This document shows positions 16,080-33,105 of a stretch of 35,298 nucleotides of DNA, in pieces. How positions within the stretch are numbered: position 1 is the stretch's first letter; every line of letters begins with the position of its first letter. Origin of the DNA: Candidatus Gemmiger avistercoris (GTDB taxonomy: Bacteria > Bacillota > Clostridia > Oscillospirales > Ruminococcaceae); the NCBI GenBank assembly GCA_019116705.1, contig DXBF01000013.1:1-35298 (forward strand), given 5' to 3'. The notes beneath the pieces were generated by a model that had not been told where the DNA came from, did no database searches, and was given only the letters and a program-made list of their open reading frames with translations. The translations under genes were made by a program, and so were the position numbers.

Positions 16080-16086
16080 AAATGCG

Positions 16087-16110
16087 CCTTCCCGCCGCGG
16101 GGCAGGAAGG
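16087..16110. repeat. Left copy of a 24-bp hairpin flanking repeat element copy 1
   Basis: Begins CCTTCCCGCC and ends GGCAGGAAGG, forming a hairpin. It is identical over 24 bp to 16461-16484. Read on the minus strand it is followed by CGCATTTTT, so it can end minus-strand transcripts coming from the pseudouridine synthase. Confidence 0.75.
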
Positions 16111-16141
16111 CACCCAGATTGTCGGAAAAGGTTAAAAATCC

Positions 16142-16430
16142 GTTGCCAGCGGCGGACATGTGCCGACGCTGGCAACACATACAGGGAAATTTTGCGGCAA
16201 ATTGTGTAGGAGGCCATAGGCCGATTGCGCGATTTGCCGTAAAATTTTGTCGAAGGCTGTGGAGCCGAGCGCCGCCTGCGGCGGATACAGCGAGGCGGAG
16301 CAGGGGCGGCGGTCGCAGAGCGCAATCGCCGCTCCAAGGCGCGCAGCGCGATGCGGGAACCGCAACCCGTAATCCAAAGGGGGAAACAGGAGCGTCAGGC
16401 TCCGCCGTGCGCGACTGTTGCCCCTTTTGG
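16142..16430 (+). repeat. Structured intergenic element, copy 1 (long form)
   Basis: Fills most of the 416-bp space between the convergent MurE-like and RsuA genes. P1: 10-bp perfect stem 16142-16151/16167-16176 with apical CGG/CCG and loop ACATGTG. P2: 16-bp stem 16187-16202/16232-16247 (one G-T), enclosing a small GGCC/GGCC hairpin at 16212-16222. An extra module runs about 16257-16373. P3: 16374-16389/16415-16430, enclosing a GGAGC/GCTCC hairpin. A separate 11-bp perfect hairpin follows at 16431-16455. No coding frame here looks real. Confidence 0.85.
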
Positions 16431-16460
16431 AGCTTGTCGAGTTTCTCGACAAGCTCTGCA

Positions 16461-16484
16461 CCTTCCCGCCGCGGGGCAGGAAGG
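16461..16484. repeat. Right copy of the 24-bp hairpin; plus-strand terminator-like
   Basis: Identical to 16087-16110. On the plus strand it is followed by CGTTTTCTGTTTT, so it can end transcripts of the asnB/murE-like operon after they cross the element. Confidence 0.75.
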
Positions 16485-16495
16485 CGTTTTCTGTT

Positions 16496-17215
16496 TTACC
16501 GGGCGCGCCCCTGCAAAAGCGCCAGTTCCTCCGCCGTCAGTTCCCGCCATTGGCCGGGGGCCAGCGCCGGGTCCAGCGCCACCCCGCCGATGGACAGCCG
16601 GTGCAGGGCGTTGACCCCCGCGCCAAAAACGCCGAACATCCGCTTGATCTGGTGGTAGACCCCCTGCCGCAGCGTGACCCGCACCACGCAGGGGTCGGCC
16701 CCCGCCGGTCCCACTTCAGCCGGGGCCAGCCGCCGTCCGTCCGCCAGCGTGACCCCTGCGGCAAAGCCCGCCTGCATGGCCCCGGTCAGCGGCGTGTCCA
16801 GCGTGACAAGGTATTCCTTGGCCACATGATGGGCGGGCGAGAGCAGGTCATGGGCCAGCGCGCCGTCGTCGGTCAGCAGCACGAAGCCGGTGCTGGTCTT
16901 GTCCAGCCGCCCCGCCGGGAACAGCGCGCGCCGGGGGTAGGCGGTCGCCGCCAGGTCCACTACCGTGGTATCCCGTTTGTCCCGGCTGGCGCTGACCACG
17001 CCCGCCGGTTTGTTGAGCATCAGGTAAACGAATTTCCGATAGGCCCCGGCCAGCGGCGCGCCGTCCAGCAGGATGGCGGCGTCCTCGGGCACCTGGGTGT
17101 CCGCCTTGCGGCAGACCGCCCCTTCCACGGCCACACGGCCTTTGGCGATGGCCTTGCGGCTTTCGCTGCGGGTCAGGCCGGTGCGCGCGGCCAGGTAACG
17201 GTCCAGCCGCATCAT
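16496..17215 (-). CDS. rsuA: RsuA-family 16S rRNA pseudouridine synthase
   Basis: A 239-residue enzyme of the RsuA/RluB/E/F family, which isomerises a uridine in rRNA (U516 of 16S rRNA for RsuA itself). The N-terminal S4 RNA-binding domain (MRLDRYLAARTGLTRSESRKAI) spans residues 2-60. The catalytic domain has LNKPAGVVSA and the active-site motif GRLDKTSTGFVLLTDDG with its Asp. The C-terminus has GVYHQIKRMFGVFGAGV, the conserved KRM(F/L) segment. The start ATG overlaps the stop of the upstream YbaK-type gene (ATGA), so they are coupled. RsuA versus RluB subfamily is judged on length and motif only. Confidence 0.88.
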   Translation of the reverse strand: MMRLDRYLAARTGLTRSESRKAIAKGRVAVEGAVCRKADTQVPEDAAILLDGAPLAGAYRKFVYLMLNKPAGVVSASRDKRDTTVVDLAATAYPRRALFPAGRLDKTSTGFVLLTDDGALAHDLLSPAHHVAKEYLVTLDTPLTGAMQAGFAAGVTLADGRRLAPAEVGPAGADPCVVRVTLRQGVYHQIKRMFGVFGAGVNALHRLSIGGVALDPALAPGQWRELTAEELALLQGRAR

Positions 17216-17706
17216 GCGCCGTGCTCCTGGGTGATGGCCGCCGTTTTGCCCCGCACCGCGCGGATCAGGTCGGCGGGCGCACATTCGATCTGGGTGCCGA
17301 TGCGCCCGCCGGACACCAGCATCGCGGGCTGGGCCAGGCAGCTCTCGTCAAAGACCGTGACGTACTGCTTCTTCATGCCCACCGGGCTGCAGCCACCCCG
17401 GATGTACCCGGTGACCTTGTTGATGTCCGCCACATGGATCATCGCCACGCTCTTGACCCCGGCGGCCTTGGCGGCTTTTTTCAGATCCAGTTCCGCCAGC
17501 ACCGGCACCACGAACACATAATAATTGCGGTCGGCCCCCTGGGTGACCAGCGTTTTGAACACCCGCGCCGGGTCCTGCCCGGTCAGCCGGGCCACCGTGG
17601 CGCCATCCACCGCCTGACCCTCCTCATGCGGGTATTCGTGGGCCGTATAGGCGATCCTGGCGCGTTCCAGCATGCGCATGGCGTTGGTTTTTGCTTCTTT
17701 TGCCAT
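17212..17706 (-). CDS. ybaK: YbaK/EbsC-type Cys-tRNA(Pro) deacylase
   Basis: A 164-residue YbaK-domain protein that hydrolyses Cys mis-attached to tRNA-Pro, acting as a freestanding editing factor. Visible are the N-terminal MAKEAKTNAMRMLERA, the helix RVFKTLVTQG, the motif VPVLAELDLKKAAKAAG, and the family GYIRGGCSPVGMKK near 103-116. ATG 17706 with GGGGGAA upstream is preferred over an earlier in-frame Met. It has its own promoter at 17738-17766 and is translationally coupled to the pseudouridine synthase. Confidence 0.92.
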   Translation of the reverse strand: MAKEAKTNAMRMLERARIAYTAHEYPHEEGQAVDGATVARLTGQDPARVFKTLVTQGADRNYYVFVVPVLAELDLKKAAKAAGVKSVAMIHVADINKVTGYIRGGCSPVGMKKQYVTVFDESCLAQPAMLVSGGRIGTQIECAPADLIRAVRGKTAAITQEHGA

Positions 17707-17737
17707 CGTAGTTTCCCCCATTCCGTATTCGGCCTTT

Positions 17738-17766
17738 ATTATAAGCCGGAGAAAAAAAATCCGCAA
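17738..17766 (-). promoter_or_regulatory. Promoter of ybaK-rsuA
   Basis: -35 TTGCGG (17766-17761), 17-bp spacer, -10 TATAAT (17743-17738) on the minus strand. Its -35 is 6 bp from the -35 of the divergent aroF promoter. Confidence 0.8.
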
Positions 17767-17772
17767 GAGGCC

Positions 17773-17801
17773 TTGACTTTAACGCTTTAAAGTGTTAGAA
17801 T
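17773..17801 (+). promoter_or_regulatory. aroF promoter with an inverted repeat in its spacer
   Basis: -35 TTGACT (17773-17778), 17-bp spacer, -10 TAGAAT (17796-17801). Within it, ACTTTAA-CGCT-TTAAAGT (17776-17793) is a perfect 7-bp inverted repeat lying between the two promoter boxes, where a repressor would exclude polymerase. The regulator is unknown. Confidence 0.8.
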
Positions 17802-17840
17802 CCCGGTACAGATGTAGAACGAAAGACAGGAGTATTTGCT

Positions 17841-18860
17841 ATGATCATCGTACTGAAGCAGCACGCCCCCGACGCCCAGGTGCAGGCTTTCTGCGCCGAA
17901 CTGCGCGGCATGGGCTTTGAGATCAACGATTCTGTGGGCAGCGACACCCACATTCTGGGCCTGATCGGCGATACCAAGGCCCTGGCCGAAAGCTGGGTGC
18001 TGGCCAACCCGGTGGTGGAGACCTGCCGCCGGGTCAGCGAGCCTTACAAGAAAGCCAACCGCAAATTCCACCCCGACGACACCGTGGTGGATGTGGGCGG
18101 GCACAGGATCGGCGGCGGCCACTTTGCCGTGATGGCCGGCCCCTGCAGCGTGGAAGGCCCCGAACAGATCACCGGCATCGCCCGCCGGGTGCAGGCGGCC
18201 GGGGCCGGCATCCTGCGCGGGGGCGCGTTCAAGCCCCGCACCAGCCCCTACAGCTTCCAGGGCCTGCGGGCGGAAGGGCTGGAACTGCTGCAGCAGGCCC
18301 GCGCCGCCACCGGCCAGCCCATCGTGACCGAGCTGATGAACAACGAGCACATCCCGCTGTTCGAGGAAGCCGGGGTGGATATGATCCAGATCGGCGCGCG
18401 GAACATGCAGAACTTTGAACTGCTGAAAGCCGTGGGGCGCCTGAAAGTGCCGGTGCTGCTCAAGCGGGGGCTTTCCTCCACGCTGGAAGAACTGGTCATG
18501 AGCGCCGAGTACATCATGGCCGAGGGCAACCCCAACGTGGTGCTCTGCGAGCGGGGCATCCGCACGTTCGAGCCCAGCATGCGCAACACGCTGGACATTT
18601 CCGCCGTGCCGATGCTGAAGAAAATGACCCACCTGCCGGTGGTGATCGACCCCAGCCACGCGGCGGGCATCGCCTTCATGGTGCAGCCGCTGGCCCAGGC
18701 TGCGGTGGCCGCCGGGGCGGACGGGCTGATGATCGAGGTGCACAACGACCCGGCCCGCGCCAAAAGCGACGGCGCCCAGAGCCTGACCCCCGACCAGTTC
18801 GACGCGCTGATGGCGGTGATCCGCCCCGAACTGGAGTTCTTTGGCAAGACGCTGAACTGA
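17841..18860 (+). CDS. aroF: 3-deoxy-7-phosphoheptulonate synthase (DAHP synthase)
   Basis: A 339-residue DAHP synthase that condenses phosphoenolpyruvate and erythrose 4-phosphate as the first step of the shikimate pathway. It has the short N-terminal ferredoxin-like domain of the type I-beta class (MIIVLKQHAPDAQVQAF, residues 1-70), then the TIM barrel with AGPCSVEG at 99-106, GGAFKPRTSPYSFQG at 131-145, LKRGLSST and VVIDPSHAAG. The N-terminal domain is the usual site of aromatic feedback control. CAGGAG lies 8 nt before the ATG. It is monocistronic between its own promoter and a strong terminator. Confidence 0.96.
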   Translation: MIIVLKQHAPDAQVQAFCAELRGMGFEINDSVGSDTHILGLIGDTKALAESWVLANPVVETCRRVSEPYKKANRKFHPDDTVVDVGGHRIGGGHFAVMAGPCSVEGPEQITGIARRVQAAGAGILRGGAFKPRTSPYSFQGLRAEGLELLQQARAATGQPIVTELMNNEHIPLFEEAGVDMIQIGARNMQNFELLKAVGRLKVPVLLKRGLSSTLEELVMSAEYIMAEGNPNVVLCERGIRTFEPSMRNTLDISAVPMLKKMTHLPVVIDPSHAAGIAFMVQPLAQAAVAAGADGLMIEVHNDPARAKSDGAQSLTPDQFDALMAVIRPELEFFGKTLN

Positions 18861-18865
18861 AAAAC

Positions 18866-18895
18866 AAAAAAGGACGGCTGCGGCCGTCCTTTTTT
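18866..18895 (+). terminator. aroF terminator, bidirectional
   Basis: Stem GGACGGC/GCCGTCC with TGCG loop, with A6 before and T6 after, directly after the aroF stop. It also suits the convergent zinc-ribbon gene. Confidence 0.9.
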
Positions 18896-18926
18896 GTCTG
18901 GTTTTTAAAGAGCGCGGCCGCCCTGC

Positions 18927-19286
18927 TCAGGCCGAGCAGGAGGCAAAAAAGATCGGGAACAGTTCCACGAGCAGGACCAGCAGTATGACCCAGCCCACCG
19001 AACGGTAGATCTTGCGCCTGGAATCCCGCCTGTTTTCCTGCTCCTTGCGGGCCGCATAGCTGCCCTTGGGGCGCTGCGGCGCCCGTTTTTCCGGCGGGCA
19101 GGTGTAAAACGGCGTCTTGCCGGGGGTCTTGCGCACACGGTGCAGGACTTTTTCGCCGTTCACATCGTGGGTATGTACGCTTTCCCCTTCACTGCGGAGC
19201 GAATAGCGTTTTTCCGTAGCGTAAGGCATGCCGCAGTCCTGGCAACGCCCGTCGATGACATCACCGCCGCAAAAGCTGCATTTCAT
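18927..19286 (-). CDS. Zinc-ribbon, single-span membrane protein of unknown function
   Basis: A 119-residue protein. Residues 3-19 hold a CxxC...CxxC ribbon (CSFCGG and CQDCGM). A hydrophilic middle contains Arg and Lys rich segments (RPKGSYAARKEQENRRDSRRK). Residues 97-117 form one hydrophobic helix (SVGWVILLVLLVELFPIFF). A cytoplasmic zinc ribbon with a C-terminal membrane anchor is the simplest topology. GGGAGGG precedes the ATG at 19286. A -10 TATAAT at 19355-19350 has a weak -35. I do not recognise a named family. Confidence 0.75.
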   Translation of the reverse strand: MKCSFCGGDVIDGRCQDCGMPYATEKRYSLRSEGESVHTHDVNGEKVLHRVRKTPGKTPFYTCPPEKRAPQRPKGSYAARKEQENRRDSRRKIYRSVGWVILLVLLVELFPIFFASCSA

Positions 19287-19420
19287 AAAGGCCCTCCCTT
19301 TCTGTTCCCGTTTTCTGTTCTGAACTTTCTCTGTACCTGGTACTTTATTATTATACAGGATTCCGCCGCAAAAGAACAGAACTTTTTCGCCCTTTTTCGG
19401 GCCCCGGCGGCGCGGGGCGC

Positions 19421-19458
19421 AAAAAAAGCCCGCGGCGACCGCACAATTCGCCGCGGGC
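19421..19458 (-). terminator. Terminator of the ilv operon
   Basis: A perfect 10-bp stem GCCCGCGGCG/CGCCGCGGGC (19428-19437 and 19449-19458), followed on the minus strand by seven Ts. It lies 21 nt after the ilvD stop. Confidence 0.92.
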
Positions 19459-19479
19459 CAGGGTCTGGCAAAGGCCGGT

Positions 19480-21138
19480 TTACTGCAGCACCGCGCCCAG
19501 GTTGGCGCTGGTGACCAGCCGTGCATACCGCGCCAGCCAGCCCGTTTTCACGTTGGGTTCGGGCTGGACGTAGGCCGCCTTGCGGCGGGCCAGTTCCTCG
19601 TCGCTGACGGCGAGGTGGATGGAGGCGTTCGGAATGTCGATCTCGATCGTATCCCCTTCTTCGATCAGGCCGATGGGCCCGCCGGAAGCCGCCTCGGGGC
19701 TGACGTGGCCGATGGCCGCGCCGCGGGACGCGCCGGAGAACCGGCCGTCGGTGATAAGGGCGACCGTGGTATCCAGCTTCATGCCCGCCAGGGCGCTGGT
19801 GGGGTTGAGCATCTCCCGCATGCCGGGGCCGCCCTTGGGGCCTTCGTAGCGGATGACCACCACGTCGCCGGGATGGATCTGCCCCGCGTAGATGGCGGCG
19901 ATGGCGGTATCCTCGCTGTCGAACACGCGGGCCGGGCCGCTGTGGACCTGCATTTCGGGCGCGACGGCGCTGCGCTTGACCACGCAGCCGTCGGGGGCGA
20001 TGTTGCCCCAGAGGATCTGCAACCCGCCGGTGGGGCTGTAGGGGTCGTCGATGGGGCGGATGGCCTTTGTGTCGAGGATCTTGGCCCCGGCGATGTTCTC
20101 GCCCAGGGTCTTGCCGGTGACGGTGGGCACCTCCAGGTCCAGCAGGCCCTTCTTGGCCAGTTCGGCCTGCACCGCCGGGATGCCGCCCGCCTCATACAGG
20201 TCGGGCATATGGGTGGGGCCCGCCGGGGCCAGATGGCAGAGGTTGGGGGTTTGGGCGCTGATCTCGTTGAAAAGTTTCAGGTCGATGGGCACGCCCGCCT
20301 CCTGGGCGATGGCCAGCAGATGCAGCACCGTGTTGGTGGAGCAGCCCAGGGCCATATCGCAGGTCAGCGCGTTGCGGATGGAACGCTCGTTGACGATCTG
20401 GCGCGCGGTGACCCCGCGCCGCACCAGATCCATGACCGCCATGCCCGCATGTTTGGCCAGCTGCAGCCGCTTGGCGTACACCGCCGGGATGGTGCCGTTG
20501 CCGGGCAGGGCGATACCGATGGCTTCGCACAGGCAGTTCATGCTGTTGGCCGTGTACATGCCGGAGCAGGAACCGCAGCCCGGGCAGCAGTTGCAGGTGC
20601 AGTCCTCCAGCTGTTCGCCGTCGATGAGGCCCGCTTTGTAAGCGCCCACAGCCTCGAACATTTTGGACAGGCTGACTTCCTCGCCGCCGTAGCGGCCCGC
20701 CAGCATCGGCCCGCCGGAACAGACCACCGCGGGCACGTCCATACGCACGGCGGCCATGAGCATGCCGGGCACGATCTTGTCGCAGTTGGGCACCAGCACC
20801 AGGCCGTCCAGCTGGTGGGCCATATACATGGTCTCCACGCTGTCGCAGATCAGTTCCCGGCTGGCCAGGGAATACTTCATGCCCACATGCCCCATGGCGA
20901 TGCCGTCGCACACGCCGATGGCGGGCATCAGGATGGGGGTGCCGCCGGCCATTCGCACACCGGCCTTGACGGCATCCGCGATCTTGTCCAGGTTCATATG
21001 GCCGGGCACGATCTCGCTGTAGGCGCTCACCACGCCGATCAGGGGGCGCTCCAGCTCCTCCGGCGTATAGCCCAGGGCGTAGAACAGGCTGCGGTTGGGC
21101 GCCCGTTCCGGGCCTTTTTTCACATTATCGCTGTTCAT
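19480..21138 (-). CDS. ilvD: Dihydroxy-acid dehydratase
   Basis: A 552-residue iron-sulfur dehydratase that removes water from the dihydroxy acids of the Ile/Val pathway. Cluster ligand regions are seen in [12 protein letters not shown] and in the cysteine-rich [21 protein letters not shown], written here as [13 protein letters not shown] and SMNC. Substrate segments [14 protein letters not shown] and [11 protein letters not shown] are present. The ATG at 21138 has GGAGAG upstream; the longer reading runs through a structured repeat element and is rejected. It is last in ilvB-N-C-D, separated from ilvC by 400 bp holding repeat copy 2, so it may have a separate leader. Confidence 0.96.
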
Positions 21139-21237
21139 GACTTCTCTCTCCGTTTTTCTGTAGGGGTCCCGCCGGGGATGGCCCGGGCACGCACATACCC
21201 GGGCCCGGCGCAGGGCGCAAAAGACAGCTTTTTTACC

Positions 21238-21530
21238 GTCTCCATCGGCGGACATGTGCCGACGATGGAGACACATACAGGGAAATTTACCCCAAAATTG
21301 TGTGCGAGGCCCGTGGGCCGAGTGCGCGGTTTTGGGGTAAATTTTGTCGAAGGCTGTGAAGCCGAGCGCCGCCTGCGGCGGATGCAGCGAGGCGGAGCAG
21401 GGGCAGCGGTCGCAGAGTGCAAGCGCCGCTCCAAGGTGCGCCGCACGATGCGGGCACCGCAACCCGGCCTTTCCAAAGAGGGGAAACACGAGCCTTAGGC
21501 AATTGCCGTGGGCGAGTGTTGCCCCTTTTG
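21238..21530 (+). repeat. Structured intergenic element, copy 2 (long form)
   Basis: Lies between ilvC and ilvD. P1: perfect 10-bp stem GTCTCCATCG/CGATGGAGAC (21238-21247/21263-21272). P2: perfect 15-bp stem 21283-21297/21330-21344, with an inner GGCCC/GGGCC hairpin. An extra module of about 120 nt (21354-21473) is very similar to that of copy 1. P3: 21474-21488/21517-21530. It ends 7 nt before the ilvC stop codon. The rest of the 400-bp gap (21139-21237) is a GC-rich stretch with one inverted CCCGGGC repeat and no clear promoter. Confidence 0.85.
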
Positions 21531-21537
21531 ACTCTCC

Positions 21538-22704
<1,167 letters not shown>

Positions 22705-23289
22705 TTATTTTCCGGCTTTCGGCCCGTAGGTGGGGTACTGGATGCCGCTGACCTCCTGCACCGGCTTCTGCATGTGCTTGTGCATGCCGCCGCGCTCGAT
22801 GGCGGTGACGCCGGTGCGGCACATTTCCAGAATATGATAGTCCTGGAACATCAGCAGGAAGGCGTCGATCTTGCTGGGGCGGCCGGTCAGTTCAAAGACC
22901 ATGCTGTCGGGCGAGAGGTCGATGATCTTGGATTTGTAGATGCTGGCGATCTCCCGCAGTTCGGCGCGGCTGTGCACGTCGGCCGCCACCTTCAGCAGCA
23001 GCAGTTCCCGCTGCAGGCTGTTGTCGGGGTCCAGTTCAAAGACCTGGCGGGTGACTTCCAGACGGTCGGTCTGCAGCAGCAGCTGGGAGATGGCATTCTC
23101 GTCGCCGTGGGTGGTGACGGTGATGCGGCTGATGGCGGGGTCGTTGGTGGTGGAGACCGTCAGGCTGTCGATGTTGAAGCCCCGGCGGTTGAACAGGCTG
23201 GAGACCCGGGCCAGCACGCCGCGCTGGTTGTCCACCAGGATGCTGATGACGCGGCGGTCCTCCGCCGTATTTTTCTTGACAGTAGGCAT
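22705..23289 (-). CDS. ilvN: Acetolactate synthase small (regulatory) subunit
   Basis: A 194-residue regulatory subunit with an N-terminal ACT domain (SILVDNQRGVLARVSSLFNRRGFNIDSL, residues 15-42) that binds valine or another branched-chain effector and activates and inhibits IlvB. The C-terminal half has DLSPDSMVFELTG and the helix KIDAFLLMFQ, usual for IlvN/IlvH. GGAGGGG lies before the ATG, 13 nt after the ilvB stop. The C-terminal tail is longer than the shortest IlvN forms, as in IlvH. Confidence 0.95.
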   Translation of the reverse strand: MPTVKKNTAEDRRVISILVDNQRGVLARVSSLFNRRGFNIDSLTVSTTNDPAISRITVTTHGDENAISQLLLQTDRLEVTRQVFELDPDNSLQRELLLLKVAADVHSRAELREIASIYKSKIIDLSPDSMVFELTGRPSKIDAFLLMFQDYHILEMCRTGVTAIERGGMHKHMQKPVQEVSGIQYPTYGPKAGK

Positions 23290-23302
23290 CGCGGCCCCTC
23301 CT

Positions 23303-24967: not shown

Positions 24968-25042
24968 CTTCCTTCTCCTCCTCGTGATTTTCAGATACGG
25001 GCTCTGGCGCCCCTCTTCCATAGAAGTCCAAATTTTCAAACC

Positions 25043-25218
25043 GTCGCCACCGGCGGACATGTGCCGACGGCGGCGACACATCCAGGGAAATTTCCCTAAA
25101 AATTGTGTGCGAGGCCACCGGCCGAGTGCGCGGTTTTGAGGGAAATTTTGTCGAAGGGGAATCCAAAGGGGGAAACATGAGCCTCAGGCATCGCCGTGGG
25201 CGAATGTTGCTCTCTTTG
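25043..25218 (+). repeat. Structured intergenic element, copy 3 (short form)
   Basis: Lies in the ilvB leader between the T-box terminator and the ilvB start. P1: 25043-25052/25068-25077 with one mismatch. P2: 25088-25101/25134-25148 with a bulged G, and inner GGCC/GGCC. P3: 25164-25177/25205-25218. The 120-nt module of copies 1 and 2 is absent; only about 15 nt join P2 and P3. P3 ends 6 nt from the T run of the T-box terminator. Confidence 0.85.
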
Positions 25219-25223
25219 TACCA

Positions 25224-25503
25224 CAAAAAACAGCCTTTGCCCCTTGAACCCAAGAGACAAAGGCTGTAACAGCGCTCTGCGGTACCACTCTTATTGGGAC
25301 GATGCGTCCCCACTCACCAGACTTCCAACAAAGTCCCGCGCAGTAACGGGCGCCCCCGTATCCGCCTACCAGCCGCAGCCTTCAGCGGATCTGCTCCGGG
25401 ATCAGTTCGCGGCCTGCCTGCCCCGCTGCCTTGCACCAACCGGCAGTTCTCTGATGGCGTGTTCAGACCGTTACTACTTCCCATCCAAGCATTTTGGAAT
25501 TTG
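25224..25503 (-). promoter_or_regulatory. T-box leader (Leu specifier likely) of the ilv operon
   Basis: A tRNA-sensing riboswitch on the minus strand. The antiterminator core AGTGGTACCGC is at 25289-25279. Stem I carries AGTA, AGAGAACTGCC and GGTTGGTGCAAGGCAG, the usual apical signals. The specifier loop reads GAA-CTG-A followed by TCCC, which pairs with the GGGA at the stem base. The codon is thus CTG (Leu) at 25405-25403; a shifted ATC (Ile) reading is less likely. The terminator stem is 25231-25239/25258-25266 with six Ts (25230-25225). Uncharged tRNA-Leu should promote read-through into ilvB. Confidence 0.93.
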
Positions 25504-25509
25504 TGTTAA

Positions 25510-25538
25510 ACTATACCGCATTTCCTCAGGGTTGTCAA
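25510..25538 (-). promoter_or_regulatory. Promoter of the T-box/ilv operon
   Basis: Consensus -35 TTGACA (25538-25533), 17-bp spacer, -10 TATAGT (25515-25510) on the minus strand, directly above the T-box leader. Confidence 0.93.
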
Positions 25539-25555
25539 GTTTTTTTGTGAAAATC

Positions 25556-25584
25556 TTGCAACTTTATGCGGCGTTGTTTATACT
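25556..25584 (+). promoter_or_regulatory. Promoter of the DUF815 ATPase gene
   Basis: -35 TTGCAA (25556-25561), 17-bp spacer, -10 TATACT (25579-25584), 31 bp above the coding start. It is divergent from the ilv promoter, with the -35 boxes 17 bp apart. Confidence 0.88.
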
Positions 25585-25615
25585 GAGAGTAGTTTCTTGG
25601 GAAAGGATCGATACT

Positions 25616-26791
25616 ATGCAACGTGTAGAATGGTCAGCGCGCCTGGACGCGCTGGTCGTGTTCCGCGGCCTGCTGGACGCGCCTCTGGTACAGGCCCTGC
25701 GGGCGGCGCTGGCCGCCGGGGAACCGGAACTGGGCGGCGCGCTGGCGGCCTTTGAGGCCGCCCTGTTCCGCCGCGGCACCAACTGGACCCGCGCCCTGCT
25801 GGACCTGCTGCTGGAGGATGAGAACCTCTGCCTGCAGGTAGCGGCGGGCGGGGACGCCGGACCCGTACTGGAAAAAGCGCTGACGGAGGAGCTGGATCTC
25901 CTGCAGGCGCTGGGCCGGGCCGGGCTGGACGAGGTGTTCCACGGCGCGCCGGACTACCTGCCCCGCTGGCAGACCGACCCGGAGGCCGACTACCACGCGG
26001 CCTACCAGGCGCGGCGGGCCGCCGTGGGCCGCAAGGGCTACGGCCTCTTTGCCCGGTACCATGTGTTCACGCTGGAGGACGGGCGGCTGACCCCCGTGCG
26101 CTACCCCGACCCCCAGCGCCTGAGCGAACTGCCCGGCTATGAGCGGGAGCGGGAGAAGGTCATCGCCAACACCCGCGCCCTGCTGGAGGGCCGCCCCGCC
26201 AACAACGTGCTGCTGTACGGCGACGCGGGCACCGGCAAATCCAGCACGGTCAAGGCCATCGCCAACGAGTTCGCCGGGGACGGCCTGCGGCTGATCGAGG
26301 TCAAAAAGAACCAGCTGTACCAGATTCCCGCCCTGATGGACGATCTGGCCAAGAACCCGCTGAAGTTCATCCTGTTCATCGACGACCTGAGCTTTGCCGC
26401 CAACGACGACAACTTCGCGGCGCTGAAAGCCATTCTGGAGGGCAGCGTGGGCGGGCGCAGCCACAACGTGGCGGTGTACGCCACCAGCAACCGCCGCCAT
26501 CTGGTGAAGGAATCCATGGCCGACCGCACCGGCGACGACCTGCATGCGGCCGACACCCGCCAGGAACTGATGAGCCTGGCCGCCCGGTTCGGGCTGACCG
26601 TGACCTTCCAGCAGCCGGACAAGGCCCGCTACGACGGCATCCTGCTGGAACTGGCCCGCCAGTACGGCGTGCAGATGCCCAGCGACCAGCTGTTCATGAA
26701 GGGGGCGGCCTTCGCCCTGCGGGCCGGGGGCCGCAGCCCCCGGGTGGCCAAGCAGTTCATCGAGATGCTGGCCGGCGGCGTCAGCGTATAA
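25616..26791 (+). CDS. DUF815-family AAA+ ATPase
   Basis: A 391-residue protein of the DUF815 ATP-binding family. The N-terminal 170 residues are Leu/Ala-rich helices. The ATPase core has Walker A GDAGTGKSS at 202-210, Walker B LFIDDLSF at 253-260, and a sensor-1-like ATSNRRHLV. C-terminal residues form the small helical domain with a sensor-2-like SPRVAKQF. The family is widespread in Clostridia; its role is not established. AAAGGATCG precedes the ATG; a longer in-frame reading upstream is just the antisense of the T-box. It is monocistronic, with its own promoter and terminator. Confidence 0.9.
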   Translation: MQRVEWSARLDALVVFRGLLDAPLVQALRAALAAGEPELGGALAAFEAALFRRGTNWTRALLDLLLEDENLCLQVAAGGDAGPVLEKALTEELDLLQALGRAGLDEVFHGAPDYLPRWQTDPEADYHAAYQARRAAVGRKGYGLFARYHVFTLEDGRLTPVRYPDPQRLSELPGYEREREKVIANTRALLEGRPANNVLLYGDAGTGKSSTVKAIANEFAGDGLRLIEVKKNQLYQIPALMDDLAKNPLKFILFIDDLSFAANDDNFAALKAILEGSVGGRSHNVAVYATSNRRHLVKESMADRTGDDLHAADTRQELMSLAARFGLTVTFQQPDKARYDGILLELARQYGVQMPSDQLFMKGAAFALRAGGRSPRVAKQFIEMLAGGVSV

Positions 26792-26806
26792 CAAATAGAT
26801 CTGCCG

Positions 26807-26834
26807 GGCCGGGGCGCATCCCCGGCCTTTTTTT
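26807..26834 (+). terminator. Terminator of the DUF815 gene
   Basis: Perfect 8-bp stem GGCCGGGG/CCCCGGCC with CGCAT loop and seven Ts, 16 nt after the stop. Convergent ilvA ends just beyond it. Confidence 0.93.
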
Positions 26835-26842
26835 GCTGCCCG

Positions 26843-28048
26843 TCAGACCCGCTCGTTCACCAGGGCGAAGCCCGCCTCGGTCAGGCGCTGCTTGATCTCG
26901 TCGATCTGGGCCATGTTGCGGGTCTCCAGCCCCAGTTTGAGGAAGCAGCTGGTGATGGCCATATTGGTATCGGCCCGGTCGTGGTGCACGCTGATCACGT
27001 TGGCGCCGCAGGCCGAAATGATGTCGCTGACCCGGGTCAGCTGGCCGGGCTTGTCCTCCAGGGCGATCATCAGGTTCACCTTGCGGCCGCTCATGACCAG
27101 GCCGCGGGTGATGACCCGGGAGAGGATGTTCACATCGATGTTGCCGCCCGAGATCAGGCAGACGGTCTTTTTGCCCGCCAGCGGCAGTTTGCCGAAGAGG
27201 GCCGCCGCCACCGGCGTGGCGCCCGCGCCCTCGGCCACCAGCTTCTGGTTTTCCATCAGCGAGAGGATGGCCGCGGCGATCTCGTCCTCGCTGACGGTCA
27301 CGATGTCGTCCACATAGGACTCCGCCATCTGGAAGGTGATCTCGCCGGGGGTCTTGACGGCGATGCCGTCGGCAAAGGTGTCCACCCTGTCCAGTGTCTG
27401 GTACTGCCCGGCGTGGAAGGCCCGCTCCATGCTGGCGGCCCCCGCCGCCTGCACGCCGTAGACCTTGACCTCGGGGCGCAGGCTCTTGATGGCGAAGGCC
27501 ACGCCGGAGATCAGCCCCCCGCCGCCCACCGGCACGATCACCGCGTCCACGTCGGGCAGCTGGTCCAGGATCTCCAGCCCGATGGTGCCCTGCCCCGCAA
27601 TGACCCGTTCGTCGTCGTAGGGGTGGATGAAGGTCATGCCCGTCTGCTGCTGCAGTTCCACCGCCCGGTCGTGGGCGTCGTCGTAGGTGCCCTTGACCAG
27701 TTCTACCTCGGCCCCCAGGCGCTTGGTGCTCTCCACCTTCATGATGGGCGCGCCGTCGGGCATGCAGACCACGCTGCGGATCCCCATGCGGGTGGCCGCC
27801 AGCGCCACGCCCTGGGCGTGGTTGCCCGCCGAACAGGCGATGACGCCTTTGGCCCGCTCCTCCGCCGTGAGCTGGCTGATCTTATAGTAGGCCCCCCGCA
27901 CCTTGAAGCTGCCGGTCACCTGCAGGTTCTCGGTCTTGAGGTAGAGGTCGGTGTCGGGGCACAGGTGGGGCGCCGCGATCAGGTCGGTCTTGCGAGCCAC
28001 CTGTTTGAGGATGAATTTTGCGTGGTAGATCTTGTCCAGTGTCAGCAT
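26843..28048 (-). CDS. ilvA: Threonine ammonia-lyase with ACT domain
   Basis: A 401-residue PLP enzyme deaminating threonine to 2-ketobutyrate, the entry to isoleucine synthesis. The PLP Lys lies in GSFKVRGAYYK near residue 49, the phosphate loop is VGGGGLISG, and SGGNID is near 304. One C-terminal ACT domain (330-401, starting LMIALEDKPGQLTRVSDI) marks the 400-residue form, which is shared by biosynthetic IlvA and catabolic TdcB-type enzymes. GGGGAG precedes the ATG. Proximity to the ilv operon favours a biosynthetic role. Transcription starts from a promoter at 28143-28171, giving a leader of about 85 nt with a strong hairpin at 28082-28106. Confidence 0.93.
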   Translation of the reverse strand: MLTLDKIYHAKFILKQVARKTDLIAAPHLCPDTDLYLKTENLQVTGSFKVRGAYYKISQLTAEERAKGVIACSAGNHAQGVALAATRMGIRSVVCMPDGAPIMKVESTKRLGAEVELVKGTYDDAHDRAVELQQQTGMTFIHPYDDERVIAGQGTIGLEILDQLPDVDAVIVPVGGGGLISGVAFAIKSLRPEVKVYGVQAAGAASMERAFHAGQYQTLDRVDTFADGIAVKTPGEITFQMAESYVDDIVTVSEDEIAAAILSLMENQKLVAEGAGATPVAAALFGKLPLAGKKTVCLISGGNIDVNILSRVITRGLVMSGRKVNLMIALEDKPGQLTRVSDIISACGANVISVHHDRADTNMAITSCFLKLGLETRNMAQIDEIKQRLTEAGFALVNERV

Positions 28049-28081
28049 GGGCTGCTCCCCTTTCGTCGCGCCAAACAGTAC

Positions 28082-28106
28082 AGCCCGGCCCTGTGCGGGC
28101 CGGGCT
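28082..28106 (-). other. GC-rich hairpin in the ilvA leader
   Basis: Perfect 10-bp arms AGCCCGGCCC/GGGCCGGGCT around 5 nt, between the ilvA promoter and its ribosome site. No T run follows on the minus strand, so it is not a normal terminator in that direction. It may stabilise the RNA or be a remnant of an attenuator. Confidence 0.5.
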
Positions 28107-28142
28107 TTGGACCGCTTCGCTGCGGGCCGTGGCGTATGTCCG

Positions 28143-28171
28143 ATTATAGTTGAGAATATCTAATTTGTAAA
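28143..28171 (-). promoter_or_regulatory. ilvA promoter
   Basis: -35 TTTACA (28171-28166), 17-bp spacer, -10 TATAAT (28148-28143) on the minus strand. Confidence 0.88.
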
Positions 28172-28186
28172 GTGAAAAATTTTCAC
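28172..28186. promoter_or_regulatory. 15-bp palindrome adjoining the ilvA -35
   Basis: GTGAAAA-A-TTTTCAC, perfect 7-bp arms around one base, touching the -35 of ilvA. It is AT-rich in a GC-rich genome and well placed for a repressor or activator, possibly a global nutrient regulator. It does not match the CodY box in order of half-sites. Confidence 0.55.
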
Positions 28187-28257
28187 CTTATTTCCCATTG
28201 GATGTTTTGTACAAATATCACTATGTATTTTTGTGCATTTTTACACTCGCCTTTTCT

Positions 28258-28286
28258 TTGCCAAGCAACAAATAATGCGCTATAAT
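28258..28286 (+). promoter_or_regulatory. kduI-kduD promoter
   Basis: -35 TTGCCA (28258-28263), 17-bp spacer, -10 TATAAT (28281-28286). A TTTGTACAAA palindrome lies upstream at 28206-28215 and could bind a regulator. Confidence 0.88.
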
Positions 28287-28353
28287 AGAATTAACTTTGC
28301 AAGACAAGCTGTTTTCAGAACGATCTTGCTGAAATTTTAGGAGGAAAACCATT

Positions 28354-29199
28354 ATGGACATCCGTTATTCCTGCAACCAGCGCGACTTCAAGCGTTACAC
28401 CACGGAGGAAACGCGCGACGAGTTCCTGATCACCGGCCTGTACAAGGCGGATGAGGTCGTCGCGGTCTACAGCCACGTGGACCGTATGGTGACGCTGGGC
28501 TGCATGCCGGTGCATGAGGAAGTCTCCATCGACAAGGGCATCGACGTGTGGGCCAACTTCGGCACCCATTATTTCCTGGAGCGGCGCGAGATCGGCCTGT
28601 TCAACATCGGCGAGGGCGCCGGCACGGTCACGGCTGACGGCGTTTCCTACCATATGAATTACAAGGACTGCCTCTACATCACCCAGGGCACCAAGACCGT
28701 CACCTTCCAGAGCGACGATCCGGCCCACCCGGCCAAGTTCTACATGGTCTCCGCCCCGGCGCACTGCAGCTACGAGACCAAGCTCATCACCATCGACGAG
28801 GCTGCCAAGCGCCCCCTGGGCTCCCTGGAAGGCTGCAACAAGCGCACCATCAACCAGTTTATCCACCCCAGCGTGCTCAAGACCTGCCAGCTCTCCATGG
28901 GCATGACCTGCCTGGAGCCCGGCAGCAACTGGAACACCATGCCCAGCCACACCCATGAACGCCGCATGGAGATCTACACCTACTTCGAGATTCCCGAAGG
29001 TCAGGTGGTCTTCCACATGATGGGCGAGCCCACCCAGACCCGCCACATCGTCATGCACAACTACGACGCGGTCATCAGCCCGTCCTGGAGCATCCACAGC
29101 GGCGTGGGCACGTCCAACTACACCTTTATCTGGGCCATGGGCGGCGAAAACATGGAATTCGACGACATGGACAACATCAACACCCCCGATCTGCGGTAA
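28354..29199 (+). CDS. kduI: 5-dehydro-4-deoxy-D-glucuronate isomerase
   Basis: A 281-residue double cupin that converts 4-deoxy-L-threo-5-hexosulose uronate, made by lyase cleavage of pectin or glycosaminoglycans, to 2,5-diketo-3-deoxygluconate. The zinc site is visible in PSHTHERRMEIYTYFE (two His and a Glu) with a later His in SWSIHSGVGTSNY. The N-terminal part has the family segment FGTHYFLERREIGLFNIG. TAGGAGG lies 9 nt before the ATG. The length matches the family. It is followed by kduD 72 nt later in one operon. No lyase or transporter lies next to it here. Confidence 0.96.
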   Translation: MDIRYSCNQRDFKRYTTEETRDEFLITGLYKADEVVAVYSHVDRMVTLGCMPVHEEVSIDKGIDVWANFGTHYFLERREIGLFNIGEGAGTVTADGVSYHMNYKDCLYITQGTKTVTFQSDDPAHPAKFYMVSAPAHCSYETKLITIDEAAKRPLGSLEGCNKRTINQFIHPSVLKTCQLSMGMTCLEPGSNWNTMPSHTHERRMEIYTYFEIPEGQVVFHMMGEPTQTRHIVMHNYDAVISPSWSIHSGVGTSNYTFIWAMGGENMEFDDMDNINTPDLR

Positions 29200-29271
29200 G
29201 CACAGATCCCCAGGAATCCCGCGCCCTGCGGCGCTGCGGATAAAACCACAAGTACATGGAGGTTTTGCACA

Positions 29272-30081
29272 ATGTCTGTTTGCACCCCGAAATCTTTTGA
29301 TCTGACCGGCAAGGTCGCCCTGATCACCGGCGCTTCCTACGGCATCGGCTTTGCCATCGCCACCGCGATGGCCAACTGCGGCGCCACCATCGTTTTCAAC
29401 GACATCAAGCAGGAACTGGTGGACAAGGGCCTGGCCGCCTACAAAGAGGCCGGCATCGACGCCCACGGCTACGTCTGCGACGTCACCGATGAGGACGCCG
29501 TGAACGCTCTGGTCAAGAAAGTGACCGAGGAAGTGGGCCACATCAACATCCTGGTCAACAACGCCGGTATCATCAAGCGCATCCCCATGTGCGAGATGAG
29601 CGCCGCCCAGTTCCGCCAGGTCATCGACGTGGACCTGAACGCCCCCTTCATCGTGGCCAAGGCCGTCATCCCCGACATGATCGAGCAGGGCGGCGGCAAG
29701 ATCATCAACATCTGCTCCATGATGAGCGAACTGGGCCGCGAGACGGTCTCCGCCTACGCTGCTGCCAAGGGCGGCCTGAAGATGCTGACCAAGAACATCG
29801 CTTCCGAGTACGGCGAGTACAACATCCAGTGCAACGGCATCGGCCCCGGCTACATCGCCACCCCGCAGACCGCGCCGCTGCGCGAACTGCAGCCCGACGG
29901 CAGCCGTCATCCCTTCGACCAGTTCATCGTCTCCAAGACGCCGGCCGGCCGCTGGGGCGAGGCCAGCGACCTGGGCGGCCCCGCCGTGTTCCTGGCTTCC
30001 GAGGCTTCGAACTTTGTCAACGGCCTGGTCCTCTACGTCGACGGCGGCATCCTCGCCTACATCGGCAAGCAGCCCGGCTGA
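29272..30081 (+). CDS. kduD: 2-dehydro-3-deoxy-D-gluconate 5-dehydrogenase (SDR)
   Basis: A 269-residue short-chain dehydrogenase that reduces 2,5-diketo-3-deoxygluconate to 2-keto-3-deoxygluconate, the step after KduI. The cofactor motif is TGASYGIG at 19-26, NNAG near 95, the catalytic Ser in ICSMMSE, and YAAAK with Tyr and Lys. The C-terminal GPGYIATPQT and the FLASEASNFVNG segment fit the classical SDR and KduD/gluconate dehydrogenase group. Pairing with kduI settles the choice between those two. AGG-type ribosome site upstream (ACATGGAGG). Confidence 0.93.
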   Translation: MSVCTPKSFDLTGKVALITGASYGIGFAIATAMANCGATIVFNDIKQELVDKGLAAYKEAGIDAHGYVCDVTDEDAVNALVKKVTEEVGHINILVNNAGIIKRIPMCEMSAAQFRQVIDVDLNAPFIVAKAVIPDMIEQGGGKIINICSMMSELGRETVSAYAAAKGGLKMLTKNIASEYGEYNIQCNGIGPGYIATPQTAPLRELQPDGSRHPFDQFIVSKTPAGRWGEASDLGGPAVFLASEASNFVNGLVLYVDGGILAYIGKQPG

Positions 30082-30121
30082 TTGAACCCGGAACTGCACA
30101 GCTGAATAAGCATTGAATCAA

Positions 30122-30162
30122 CAACACCCCCGCCTGTTCACTGAACAGGCGGGGGGGGTTGT
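30122..30162 (+). terminator. Terminator after kduD
   Basis: A 14-bp perfect stem (30127-30140/30142-30155) with extension of the arms by ACAAC/GTTGT. The following T content is low. Confidence 0.7.
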
Positions 30163-30225
30163 CTATGATAGGTCTTTGTATGTTTGCTCTCTGTTTGATT
30201 GGCGGTTGTGCGCTTGGCGCACCCT

Positions 30226-30499
30226 GTAGGGGCGGATGCTCGCATCCGCCCGGGGTGTTCGCGGCGCCGCAAGGCCCCGCGGGCGGGATGAATCCCGCCC
30301 CTACGCATGATGGTTCGGTTCACCGCTACCCGGTGGGATTATAACCTGGTCTACCGCCATTCGTAGGGGCGGGCATTGCCCGCCCGCGGATGTTTGCGGC
30401 GGGGCGGTCGTAACGGGATGGCGACATCGCTCGCCCTGCCCGTAGGGCGGGATGCCCTCATCCCGCCCCTACGCATGGTGGTTTGGTTCACCACCACCC
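30226..30499. repeat. Tandem GC-rich palindromic repeat, two units
   Basis: Unit A is 30226-30331, unit B 30362-30499. Each begins GTAGGGGCGG with an inverted repeat (GGCGGATG/CATCCGCC; GGGCGGGCA/TGCCCGCCC). Each ends with a GGGCGGGAT/ATCCCGCCC palindrome, then CCCCTACGCATG and a TGGTT(C/T)GGTTCACC tail. This style of REP-like repeat is common between genes in gut Firmicutes. It fills the 440-bp gap between kduD and manC; no gene is seen there. Confidence 0.85.
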
Positions 30500-30520
30500 A
30501 AAATGTCCGCAGCCGCTTCT

Positions 30521-31834
30521 TTACAGCTCAAACTTCGTCTTATCCGCCACGTCGATCTCGTCGCCGATCTGGACTTCGACGGCCTGGATCCGGCTGTCGG
30601 CAATCAGGGTGTGTTTGACGCCGGCCGGCATCGTGACGACATCGCCGGGGCGCACGGGGCGCTCCTCGCCGTCGATGATGGTGCGGCCCATGCCGGCCAC
30701 AATCGTCCAGACCTCATCCCGGTGCTCGTGGCTGTGGTAGGCCAGGCGATGGCCGGGGTTGAGCAGGATACGGATTGTCGTGGCTTCGGGCTGGACATCC
30801 AAAATCGTGAAGGAACCCCAACTCTTTTCGGCAAACCGGGCTTCGCCCTCAACCTGCTCGACAAACGGCTTGATGTGGCTGGAGCGATCCTTGGACGAAA
30901 CCAGGATGCCGTCGCTGGAAGCCGCAATGACCATATCTTCACAGCCCATGCAGATCAGCGGAATGTTGAGCTGGTTGACCGCGTTGGTTCCGCGGCAGGT
31001 TTCGTCCAGCATGACCTTGCCGATCGTCGGCTCGCTCATCACTTCGCAGAAGGTGTTCCAGGTGCCGACATCCTTCCACTGCCCGGCATAGCGGATCACC
31101 GCAATATCGGGTTCGTTTTCGGCAACCGCATAGTCAAAGCTGATCCGCTTCTGCAGCGCATAGTTGGCCTGCAGATCAGCAAAGCGGCGGAAATCCAGCT
31201 GCTTGTGGCCCGCGCGCAGCAGGTAGCCAAGCTTGAAGGCGAAGACGCCGCCGTTCCACAGCGCGCCGCGCGCGATATAGGCCGCGGCGGTAGCCTCGTC
31301 CGGCTTTTCCTTAAAGCTCGAAACTTTGCTGACGGCCTCTTTCGCTTTCGGTATGATGTACCCGAACTTGGAGCTCGGGTAGGTCGGCTCAATGCCCATC
31401 AGGGTCAGGTTGGCAGCGTCAGGCCGGCCGGCCAGCGCGGCCATCTGGCGCACGGCGGCAAAGTAGCTGTCATCCACATACGGGTCAACCGGGCAGACGA
31501 CAACCGGCTCTTCAGGCCGGACATTCTGCACATCGGCCAGGTAGGCACAGGCGAGCACGATCGCCGGGAAGGTATCCCGCCGGCAGGGTTCGACACAGAT
31601 TGCCACCTTGCCGCCGAGCTGGTTCTTGATCGTGCTGACCTGCCGCTTGCCGGTGGCCACCACAATGTTGGCGGCGGGGTCGGCCGTTTTGATCTGGCGG
31701 TAGACCCGCTGCACCATACTCTCCTGGCCGCCGTCCGGCGCTTTAAGCAGCGGCACAAACTGTTTGGAGCGGATTGAGTTGGACAGCGGCCAAAGGCGCT
31801 GCCCGCTGCCGCCTGAAAGCAGAATGATGTTCAT
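30521..31834 (-). CDS. manC: Mannose-1-phosphate guanylyltransferase with cupin isomerase domain
   Basis: A 437-residue enzyme that makes GDP-mannose from mannose 1-phosphate and GTP. The nucleotidyltransferase signature GGSGQRLWPLSNSIRSKQF is at residues 8-26, with VVCPVDPYV as the metal segment and FKEKPD as the substrate Lys region. A C-terminal cupin (about 345-437, HSHEHRDEVWTIVAG) resembles type II phosphomannose isomerase, so it may also interconvert mannose 6-phosphate and fructose 6-phosphate. It follows fcl by 33 nt and supplies the GDP-mannose used by Gmd and Fcl. It is the last gene of gmd-fcl-manC. Confidence 0.93.
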   Translation of the reverse strand: MNIILLSGGSGQRLWPLSNSIRSKQFVPLLKAPDGGQESMVQRVYRQIKTADPAANIVVATGKRQVSTIKNQLGGKVAICVEPCRRDTFPAIVLACAYLADVQNVRPEEPVVVCPVDPYVDDSYFAAVRQMAALAGRPDAANLTLMGIEPTYPSSKFGYIIPKAKEAVSKVSSFKEKPDEATAAAYIARGALWNGGVFAFKLGYLLRAGHKQLDFRRFADLQANYALQKRISFDYAVAENEPDIAVIRYAGQWKDVGTWNTFCEVMSEPTIGKVMLDETCRGTNAVNQLNIPLICMGCEDMVIAASSDGILVSSKDRSSHIKPFVEQVEGEARFAEKSWGSFTILDVQPEATTIRILLNPGHRLAYHSHEHRDEVWTIVAGMGRTIIDGEERPVRPGDVVTMPAGVKHTLIADSRIQAVEVQIGDEIDVADKTKFEL

Positions 31835-31867
31835 GGGTATTCCCCCTTTTCGTTCGGGGCCGCCGGC

Positions 31868-32812
31868 TTACCGCTCGGCGCGCATCGGGTTGTGCAAAAA
31901 GTCTTCGTAGGTCAGGCGGATGCCCTCCTCGAGCTCGGTCTTGTACGTCCAGCCGAGCGCCGTCGCCTTGCTCACGTCGAGCAGCTTGCGCGGGGTGCCG
32001 TTCGGCTTCGAGGTATCCCAGCGGATTTCACCGGTGTAGCCGACAACCTTGGCGACAAGCTCGGTCAGTTCCTTGATTGTCAGCTCCTTGCCGGTGCCGG
32101 CGTTGACCGTCTCATTGCCGGAGTAGTGGTTCATCAAAAAGACGCAGAGGTTCGCGAGGTCGTCCACATAGAGGAACTCCCGCAGCGGGCTGCCGTCGCC
32201 CCAGCAGGTCACGCTGGGCAGGCCCTGCTCCTTTGCCTCGTGGAAGCGGCGGATCAGCGCCGGCAGCACATGGCTGTGGGTCGGGTGGTAGTTGTCGTTC
32301 GGGCCGTAGAGGTTGGTCGGCATCACGCTGATGTAGTCGGTGCCGTACTGGCGGTTGAGGTACTCGCAATATTTAAGGCCCGAAATTTTCGCGAGCGCGT
32401 AGGCTTCGTTGGTTTTTTCAAGCGCCGAAGTCAGCAGGCAGTCCTCCTTCATCGGCTGGGGGGCCAGGCGCGGGTAGATGCAGGAGGAGCCGAGAAATTC
32501 GAGTTTTTTGCAGCCGTTCTGCCAGGCCGCGTGGATGACGTTCATCTCGAGGATCATGTTGTCGTACATGAAATCGGCCAGCGCCTCGTTGTTCGCGACG
32601 ATGCCGCCGACCTTGGCGGCCGCGAGAAAGACGTATTCCGGCTTTTCTTCGGCAAAAAAAGCTTCGACCGCGTCCTGCCGGCAGAGGTCAAGCTCTTTGT
32701 GGGTGCGGGTGATGATGTTTGTGTAGCCCTGGCGCTCGAGCTCCCGCACAATCGCCGAGCCCACCATGCCGCGGTGGCCGGCCACATAAATTTTCGCATT
32801 TTTCTCCATCAT
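31868..32812 (-). CDS. fcl: GDP-L-fucose synthase
   Basis: A 314-residue SDR epimerase-reductase that turns GDP-4-keto-6-deoxymannose into GDP-L-fucose with NADPH. The cofactor motif is [10 protein letters not shown] at 13-22. Catalytic residues are in GSSCIYP (Ser-Cys) and the Tyr/Lys of [26 protein letters not shown] follows. ATG 32812 is preferred (GAGG about 9 nt upstream); the longer reading crosses repeat copy 4. It lies downstream of gmd, separated by 311 bp holding that repeat. Confidence 0.96.
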
Positions 32813-32865
32813 AACAGATTGCCTCGTTTCTGACCTTACAAGTAAATACCTAAAATCCAAAATCC

Positions 32866-33105
32866 GTCGCCATCTGCGGACACGCGCTGACGACGGCGAC
32901 ACCGACAGGGAAATTTTGCCCAAAATTGTGTGCGAGGAACGAAGTGACGAGTGCGCGGTTTTGGGTAAAATTTTGTCGAAGGGGATACACAAGGGGAAAT
33001 AGACGCGTTAGGCGAAGCCGGTCTCCGGCCTAAGAGCCGGGCCTGAGGCCCGGTTGGCCTCCGACACGCCGCTGCGGCGGCAGTGCGCGGCTGTTGCCCC
33101 TTGTG
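32866..33105 (+). repeat. Structured intergenic element, copy 4 (variant form)
   Basis: Lies between gmd and fcl. P1: 32866-32875/32891-32900 with two mismatches and a changed loop (ACACGCG). P2: 32911-32925/32959-32973, 15 bp with one G-T; the inner hairpin is lost (GGAACGAAGTGACG). P3: CACAAGGGG/CCCCTTGTG at its base (32988-33002/33091-33105), where copies 1-3 have AAAGGGG/CCCCTTT. The P3 loop is expanded to about 88 nt with further GC hairpins. The 120-nt module is absent. Confidence 0.82.

Follow-up and report, generated by a model that had tools for sequence, protein, structure and literature searches.

The DNA considered here, 35,298 nucleotides (nt) from Candidatus Gemmiger avistercoris (GenBank assembly GCA_019116705.1, contig DXBF01000013.1, positions 1 to 35,298, forward strand; the whole stretch is referred to as the window), carries four intergenic copies of a repeat with three stems, P1, P2 and P3. 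With high confidence, these repeats are miniature inverted-repeat transposable elements (MITEs) of the IS1182 type, which enter transcription terminators and duplicate the whole target hairpin. The full explanation proposed here, in which such MITEs carry a core that is probably selected as RNA and possibly used as a transcription boundary, is considered likely when taken as a whole. An earlier interpretation made from the letters of the window alone (the sequence-only reading) had regarded the fold as selected or copied by a mobilizer, and the element as a non-coding RNA, a cis-acting mRNA element or a non-autonomous mobile repeat. The mobile repeat is supported by its terminal inverted repeats and ends common to IS1182-family transposons, by long duplications of the target and by an empty site. 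The selected fold is supported by G-U pairing that is specific to one strand and by compensatory changes between orthologous copies. A cis-acting element of the abutting gene's mRNA is improbable in the form proposed.

Insertion at terminators and the probable IS1182 partner

The elements are short (134–352 nt in the 66 copies with both ends, 220–232 nt in 42 of them) and multicopy, lack a transposase gene, and are bounded by terminal inverted repeats, CAG..CTGTCGAAAAAG with an inverted counterpart at the right end. When 45 nt of flank were inspected in the 66 copies with both ends readable, an adjacent direct repeat was found within 6 nt of the ends in 40, compared with 0/1304 mismatched controls in which the flanks of different copies were paired. 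These direct repeats measure 14–38 nt by local alignment and nearly all fold as a single hairpin; at L085, for example, the flanking repeat is a complete hairpin (32/32 bases), the loci named here being a sample among the matches listed, picked by their conserved P1 loop. Both an A-tract and a T-tract accompany 20 of the 40 duplicated hairpins, an A-tract only 7, a T-tract only 7 and neither 6, and with such tracts in 34/40, most of the targets are therefore terminators and the direction of insertion is balanced. Transposases usually produce target-site duplications of a set length, whereas here the length equals that of the particular hairpin entered, as would be expected of an enzyme that recognizes the shape of its target.

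The first window copy (16115–16456 with its ends) illustrates the arrangement, as it lies between two copies of a 29-nt terminator hairpin on the plus strand, the left one (TGCGCCTTCCC...GGAAGGC, 16083–16111) being a direct repeat of the right one (16457–16485, followed by GTTTTCTGTTTT) with 1 mismatch. It is flanked by a Mur ligase gene (14586–16079) and a pseudouridine synthase gene (16496–17284, minus strand). For the empty-site comparison 30 orthologous loci were fetched and 12 compared, namely the own locus and 11 relatives. All nine relatives that keep the gene pair show, by eye, one terminator hairpin and no element, and the hairpin of one of them (G022) is nearly identical in sequence to that of copy 1; the other two relatives (G006, G027) are without the gene pair.

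A transposase fragment from the Gemmiger genome G011, used as query against 345 genomes of the order, has relatives in 32, from which 25 insertion sequence (IS) loci were fetched and 20 examined. Eight of these have CAG...CTG-type ends, and five of the eight (L302, L303, L304, L308, L312) are flanked on both sides by the same whole palindrome, while another eight of the 20 could not be classified. L305 is a full-length IS1182-family element whose ends, CAGACTGTCGAAAAAG, equal the MITE end at 16/16 bases. The transposases of the eight CAG-ended elements, all of which are found outside Gemmiger, have PF05598 and PF13751, and all eight, as well as L326, pass the NCBIfam model for IS1182 family transposases (NF033551) at 380–469 bits with a cut-off of 270. 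In Gemmiger itself, G011 carries a transposase N-terminus (PF05598) behind a terminator-like hairpin with the end CAGACTGTCAAATAAG (14/16). Another transposase of this genome, of 299 amino acids at L215, was rejected as a partner, as it has other ends and is not linked to the repeats. Four IS1182-type elements (L323, L324, L325, L326) also have other ends (GGAGCTGTTGACAAAC or close) and by eye lie between the arms of a palindrome, and in a genome of another genus (G091) a further IS of the IS1182 kind has its ends at terminator-like hairpins. Seven of ten Gemmiger genomes have one short open frame each with PF05598 only (L217:1342–1740 in the own genome; L216, L218–L222), the closest NCBIfam model for which is an IS5 type, far below its cut-off; its similar sequence and length in seven species suggest a fragment that has been kept and perhaps domesticated.

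Several observations weigh against an IS1182-type origin with duplication of whole hairpins. The direct repeat falls below threshold in 26/66 copies, a few of which have decayed repeats, and three of the eight CAG-ended elements (L305, L311, L313) have different palindromes on the two sides. The transposase copy of G011 stops at the contig end, the own-genome PF05598 protein consists of the N-terminal domain only, no complete IS with MITE ends was found in Gemmiger, and none of the 8 Gemmiger genomes tried has PF13751.

In the proposed mechanism, an IS1182-family DDE transposase, supplied in trans, would recognize the ~16-bp element ends and take a terminator palindrome as its target. The 3' ends of the element would be joined to the base of the palindrome, one at each outer foot, and repair would then duplicate the entire stem-loop, as a consequence of which the host gene would keep its terminator. 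What the sequences show is mobility, duplication of the hairpin, matching ends, strand-specific covariation and retention of the core; from these patterns we infer that an IS1182 transposase moves the repeats and how the ends are joined, and the RNA-level selection discussed below is put forward on the same footing.

The covarying fold and its strand

P1, P2 and P3 follow each other in identical order in all four window copies, and the stem arms quoted in the sequence-only reading are correct, including the change of P3 to CACAAGGGG/CCCCTTGTG in copy 4; one detail is imprecise, as the loop GCGGACATGTGCCGA, given there as conserved, reads GCGGACACGCGCTGA in copy 4. The covariation on which it relied far exceeds what chance would give. 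In 26 own-genome copies, 95 cells carry changes in both partners, where shuffling gives a mean of 26, and 16 pairs are variable on both sides. Of 500 shuffles none reaches these values, the one exception being the number of pair types, reached by 2/500. Among 95 distinct copies, 334 cells are changed on both sides compared with 83 after shuffling, 21 pairs covary and 96.1% of the cells are paired, values that 0/500 shuffles reach, in an alignment that was fitted to the model, of sequences that are related and with shuffle statistics that ignore kinship. Sliding the partners by 1–3 columns lowers pairing from 96% to 34–43%. By eye, P3 shows matched variation (CCAAAGAGGGG with CCCCTTTTG, CACAAGGGG with CCCCTTGTG, GGAGG with CCTCC), and the P1 loop reads ACATGYG in the different genera, L090 having the one variant, on a closing stem that varies between CGG/CCG, CTG/CAG and ACG/CGT. 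P3 was located in 88/97 copies, 59 at an offset of 47–49 and 22 at 158–163, a higher count (83/84) from a permissive pattern not being relied on; these 97 copies, like the 84 discussed below, match the Gemmiger-type core, and at least L167 (Anaerofilum) and L191 among them are not from Gemmiger.

The fold differs between the two strands. Folded alone, copy 3 reaches -85.9 kcal/mol (z -5.4) on the P1-to-P3 (plus) strand and -60.7 kcal/mol (z -2.3) on the minus strand. G-U cells outnumber A-C cells by 26 to 5 in P1 and 472 to 13 in P2 (498 to 18 together), and still by 56 to 13 in P2 (82 to 18 together) once five P2 columns with G-U as the commonest or tied pair are excluded, and two U-G pairs are present in 95/95 copies. 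As a G-U pair becomes A-C on the opposite strand, it is on the P1-to-P3 strand that the fold is maintained. By eye, P2 and many P3 stems contain opposed GA segments that could form tandem G-A pairs, on this strand only.

Pairing is also preserved at fixed sites. At six orthologous loci with the element in different species, 17 non-independent comparisons, covering two stems of P1 and P2 without the apical helix, yielded 32 double changes that compensate each other, 20 single changes that preserve pairing and 11 that disrupt it. Of the 84 Gemmiger-type copies, 48 have neither end recognizable, 12 have one and 24 have both, so the ends needed for mobility are lost before the core, which remains paired. 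Compensatory pairing at orthologous sites with decayed ends makes selection at the RNA level likely; on these comparisons of sequences, selection of the P1-P2-P3 core as RNA is moderately favored. The three stems would then fold on the P1-to-P3 strand, where selection would most likely act on the RNA, and would persist through compensatory changes even where the ends and the hairpin duplication had decayed. Two points count against this: strand-biased mutation could inflate G-U over A-C, and the copies are related and may convert one another.

Alternatively, the constraint could operate on DNA, with the stems mattering as cruciforms or single-strand hairpins for transposition, or being maintained by hairpin-templated correction, and with no function as RNA. 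Such a constraint would suit a mobile element whose target is a palindrome, and between some orthologous copies P1 differs in whole blocks that span several pairs, a pattern that template switching or conversion would produce; conversion between copies may indeed have contributed to the P1 changes. However, templated correction and cruciforms should treat both strands alike, which disagrees with the excess of G-U over A-C in P1 and in the variable P2 columns and with the two invariant U-G pairs, and copies in which both ends are gone are still paired; this explanation is regarded as rather unlikely.

Genomic position and possible roles

Genes around the copies were called with home-made finders, trained on the composition of third codon positions for Gemmiger-type loci and on long open reading frames for the others. 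Around the 84 Gemmiger-type copies the gene on the P3 side runs toward the element in 71 and away from it in 13, the arrangement being tandem in 47 versus 8, convergent in 24 and divergent in 5. For 49 pattern matches in other genera, a set that may hold a few chance matches of the loose P1 pattern, the numbers are 18 convergent, 17 and 13 tandem and 1 divergent, so that the strong orientation bias is a feature of Gemmiger. The tandem ratio is 34:2 in copies without ends and 11:2 in complete copies, a difference that is not significant (p 0.28). In gene-facing copies without a right end, P3 ends 2–21 nt from the stop codon in 36/47.

Such positions downstream of genes, with divergent arrangements only in 5/84 Gemmiger-type copies and 1/49 of the other types, and the closeness of P3 to the stop codon would agree with a cis-acting element of the abutting gene's mRNA, for instance a stabilizer or regulator in the 3'-untranslated region. 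As it was stated, this suggestion of the sequence-only reading is nevertheless improbable, since in 71/84 copies the gene that abuts the P3 side has the folding strand as its antisense strand. The mRNA would carry the reverse complement, in which G-U pairs become A-C mismatches and on which copy 3 folds less well.

On the reading preferred here, of a MITE with an RNA-selected core, the element may work as a transcription boundary, which is offered tentatively and as a guess: on the folding strand P3 has a T-run and ends in CCCCTTTTG, and a T-rich tract follows P1 on the other strand. Several results speak against this role. A simple scan did not call P1 a terminator, and all that it called within P3, in copies 2 and 3, was a weak one; a search for sigma-70-type promoters around copies 1–3 revealed none, and the single match in copy 4 lies inside P2. 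The antisense position of the folding strand in 71/84 copies tells against a boundary as well as a 3'-untranslated-region role. A related and similarly speculative view is that of a mobile RNA element, in which IS1182-type transposition would spread a structured RNA that hosts then keep at fixed sites as a transcript or boundary. If true, this would couple a duplication determined by the structure of the target to the recurrent domestication of a folded RNA.

Could the repeats instead be a family of stand-alone small RNA genes, multiplied without transposition? The P1 loop ACATGYG, whose closing stems covary from genus to genus, and the terminator-like P3 end on the folding strand are in line with this idea, which is nevertheless very improbable: transposition is shown by the terminal inverted repeats, the duplicated hairpins, the empty site and the tandem copies, and no conserved sigma-70-type promoter was found upstream of P1; a small RNA function on a mobile element is possible. 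Lastly, group IIC introns are known to associate with terminators, and IS200/IS605 elements to have hairpin ends, yet a group II intron-like, REP/RAYT-like or IS200/IS605-type element with single-strand hairpins is the least credible explanation of these repeats, given that they have terminal inverted repeats whose sequence matches IS1182-family DDE elements, that their targets are duplicated as long direct repeats, and that the window has no Rfam intron match.

Copies in the window, distribution and known systems

Copy 1 consists, on the plus strand, of the left terminal inverted repeat CAGATTGTCGGAAAAG (16115–16130), with 2 changes relative to CAGACTGTCGAAAAAG, P1 (16142–16176), P2 (16186–16248), a GC-rich middle module (16257–16369), P3 (CCAAAGGGGG...CCCCTTTTG, 16374–16429) and a right-end hairpin (16430–16456) with the right terminal inverted repeat GAGCTTGTCGAGTTTCTCGACAAGCTC. 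Copy 2 (21233–21530), also on the plus strand, has a P1 and P2 core at 21233–21353 and P3 at 21472–21530, 7 nt from the stop codon of an ilvC-like gene (21538–22683, minus strand); a hairpin duplication was looked for at its flanks and none was found. In copy 3 (25038–25218, plus strand), the core (25038–25157) is followed by P3 (25160–25218), which adjoins the terminator hairpin (25230–25267, minus strand) of a T-box leader. This region (25038–25267) lies between the conditional terminator of the T-box leader and a gene for a thiamine pyrophosphate (TPP) enzyme (ilvB-like), which places the element inside a regulated leader region. Copy 4 (32861–33105, plus strand) comprises the core (32861–32982) and a P3 (CACAAGGGG...CCCCTTGTG, 32988–33105) whose loop holds a second, palindromic mini-element (about 33017–33070). 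A truncated fifth copy on the minus strand (8191–8254), an inverted repeat, retains the right part of P3 and part of the nested mini-element.

The middle module of ~115 nt is optional, being common to copies 1 and 2 (16257–16369; 21354–21466), where it lies between P2 and P3, and not present in copies 3 and 4; the two main P3 offsets given above agree with this. Its entry point differs among copies, before P3 or within the P3 5' arm, and because of these two insertion points it may be a separate repeat. The mini-element TCGGAGGCCAACCG...CGGCTCTTAGGCCGGAGAC was seen by eye in P1 or P3 hairpin loops of different genomes (window 33017–33070 and 8191–8254; the P1 loops of L242 and L244), as if it targeted loops. 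Elsewhere in the window, a 390-nt inverted repeat (10078–10467 versus 12812–13201, 79% complementary) probably represents paralogous genes on opposite strands.

A DNA search of the own genome (1.95 Mb, 83% complete) with copy 1 yields 56 pieces. The covariance-model search that the sequence-only reading had proposed, performed with a model built from the 26 own-genome copies, gives 35 matches there, some of which may be weak or reverse-strand shadows of the kind seen in the window and the loci, and has matches in 29/35 genomes of the genus. Among family genomes, 6/119 have matches at E 1e-3, namely two from Gemmiger and four of other genera, and 17/396, from 7/126 sampled genera, at E 1e-5; a DNA search with one copy finds the element in 28/35 genomes of the genus and 0/26 outside. 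In the Gemmiger genome G017 (L235, L236, L241), some elements stand in succession with a terminator hairpin between them, shortened ones included. As the sequence-only reading had surmised, there is no match to a described RNA: nothing exceeds the Rfam gathering score in the copy regions of the window, and at a low threshold, applied to copies 1 and 4 only, four matches appear, none credible and none below E 0.01, the best of them (E 0.01) being a microRNA family at 25 bits against a cut-off of 100, which was dismissed. The internal fold, which is maintained on one strand at orthologous sites once the mobile ends have gone, is put forward as a candidate unclassified structured RNA family of Gemmiger and relatives. 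Neither a printed account of the repeat family nor a printed example of insertion with whole stem-loop duplication was found in open-licence PubMed Central (PMC), and hairpin-long duplications may already be recorded in ISfinder or Siguier 2015.

Short, multicopy, non-autonomous and foldable repeats, some of them clustered or nested, are also known among bacterial MITEs that have structured transcripts, namely BOX, SPRITE, Correia/NEMIS, ERIC and QMITE, which resemble the present family in these respects and are set apart from it by their descriptions, as they have other names and hosts, and no hairpin-long target duplication is described for them in the parts of the source used here (PMC10969869). 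The MRSC-65-2 motif is similar in being covarying, multicopy and judged mobile, but differs in that it is a single long stem with UYCCGG repeats, according to the parts of the source consulted (PMC11109978); the main text of that paper contains 0 mentions of Gemmiger, Subdoligranulum or Faecalibacterium.

A further close likeness is to IS1272 and TnSha1 of staphylococci, which share the IS1182-family DDE type and the preference for stem-loops or terminators. In the excerpts relied on, these elements are described as inserting into stem-loops that have no consensus in sequence and include several confirmed terminators; all four of the IS1272 insertions that lie very near genes are located just downstream, and the stem-loop is replaced or partly deleted with no target duplication (PMC4923244, PMC5678879). 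The elements described here differ in the last respect, as the whole stem-loop is not replaced and instead stands on both sides, duplicated in 40/66 readable MITE copies and 5/8 full-length CAG-ended elements. Among the pathways of structure-dependent transposition drawn by Wan 2017, the insertion of L323–L326 between palindrome arms resembles pathway c, insertion at the loop, whereas the MITEs and the five full-length elements fit pathway b, which in the portion of that paper drawn on here is a possibility without example (PMC5678879). The whole stem-loop duplication sketched in 2017 thereby gains sequence evidence in the form of natural examples and an empty site, and it becomes plain how a terminator can receive an element and survive.

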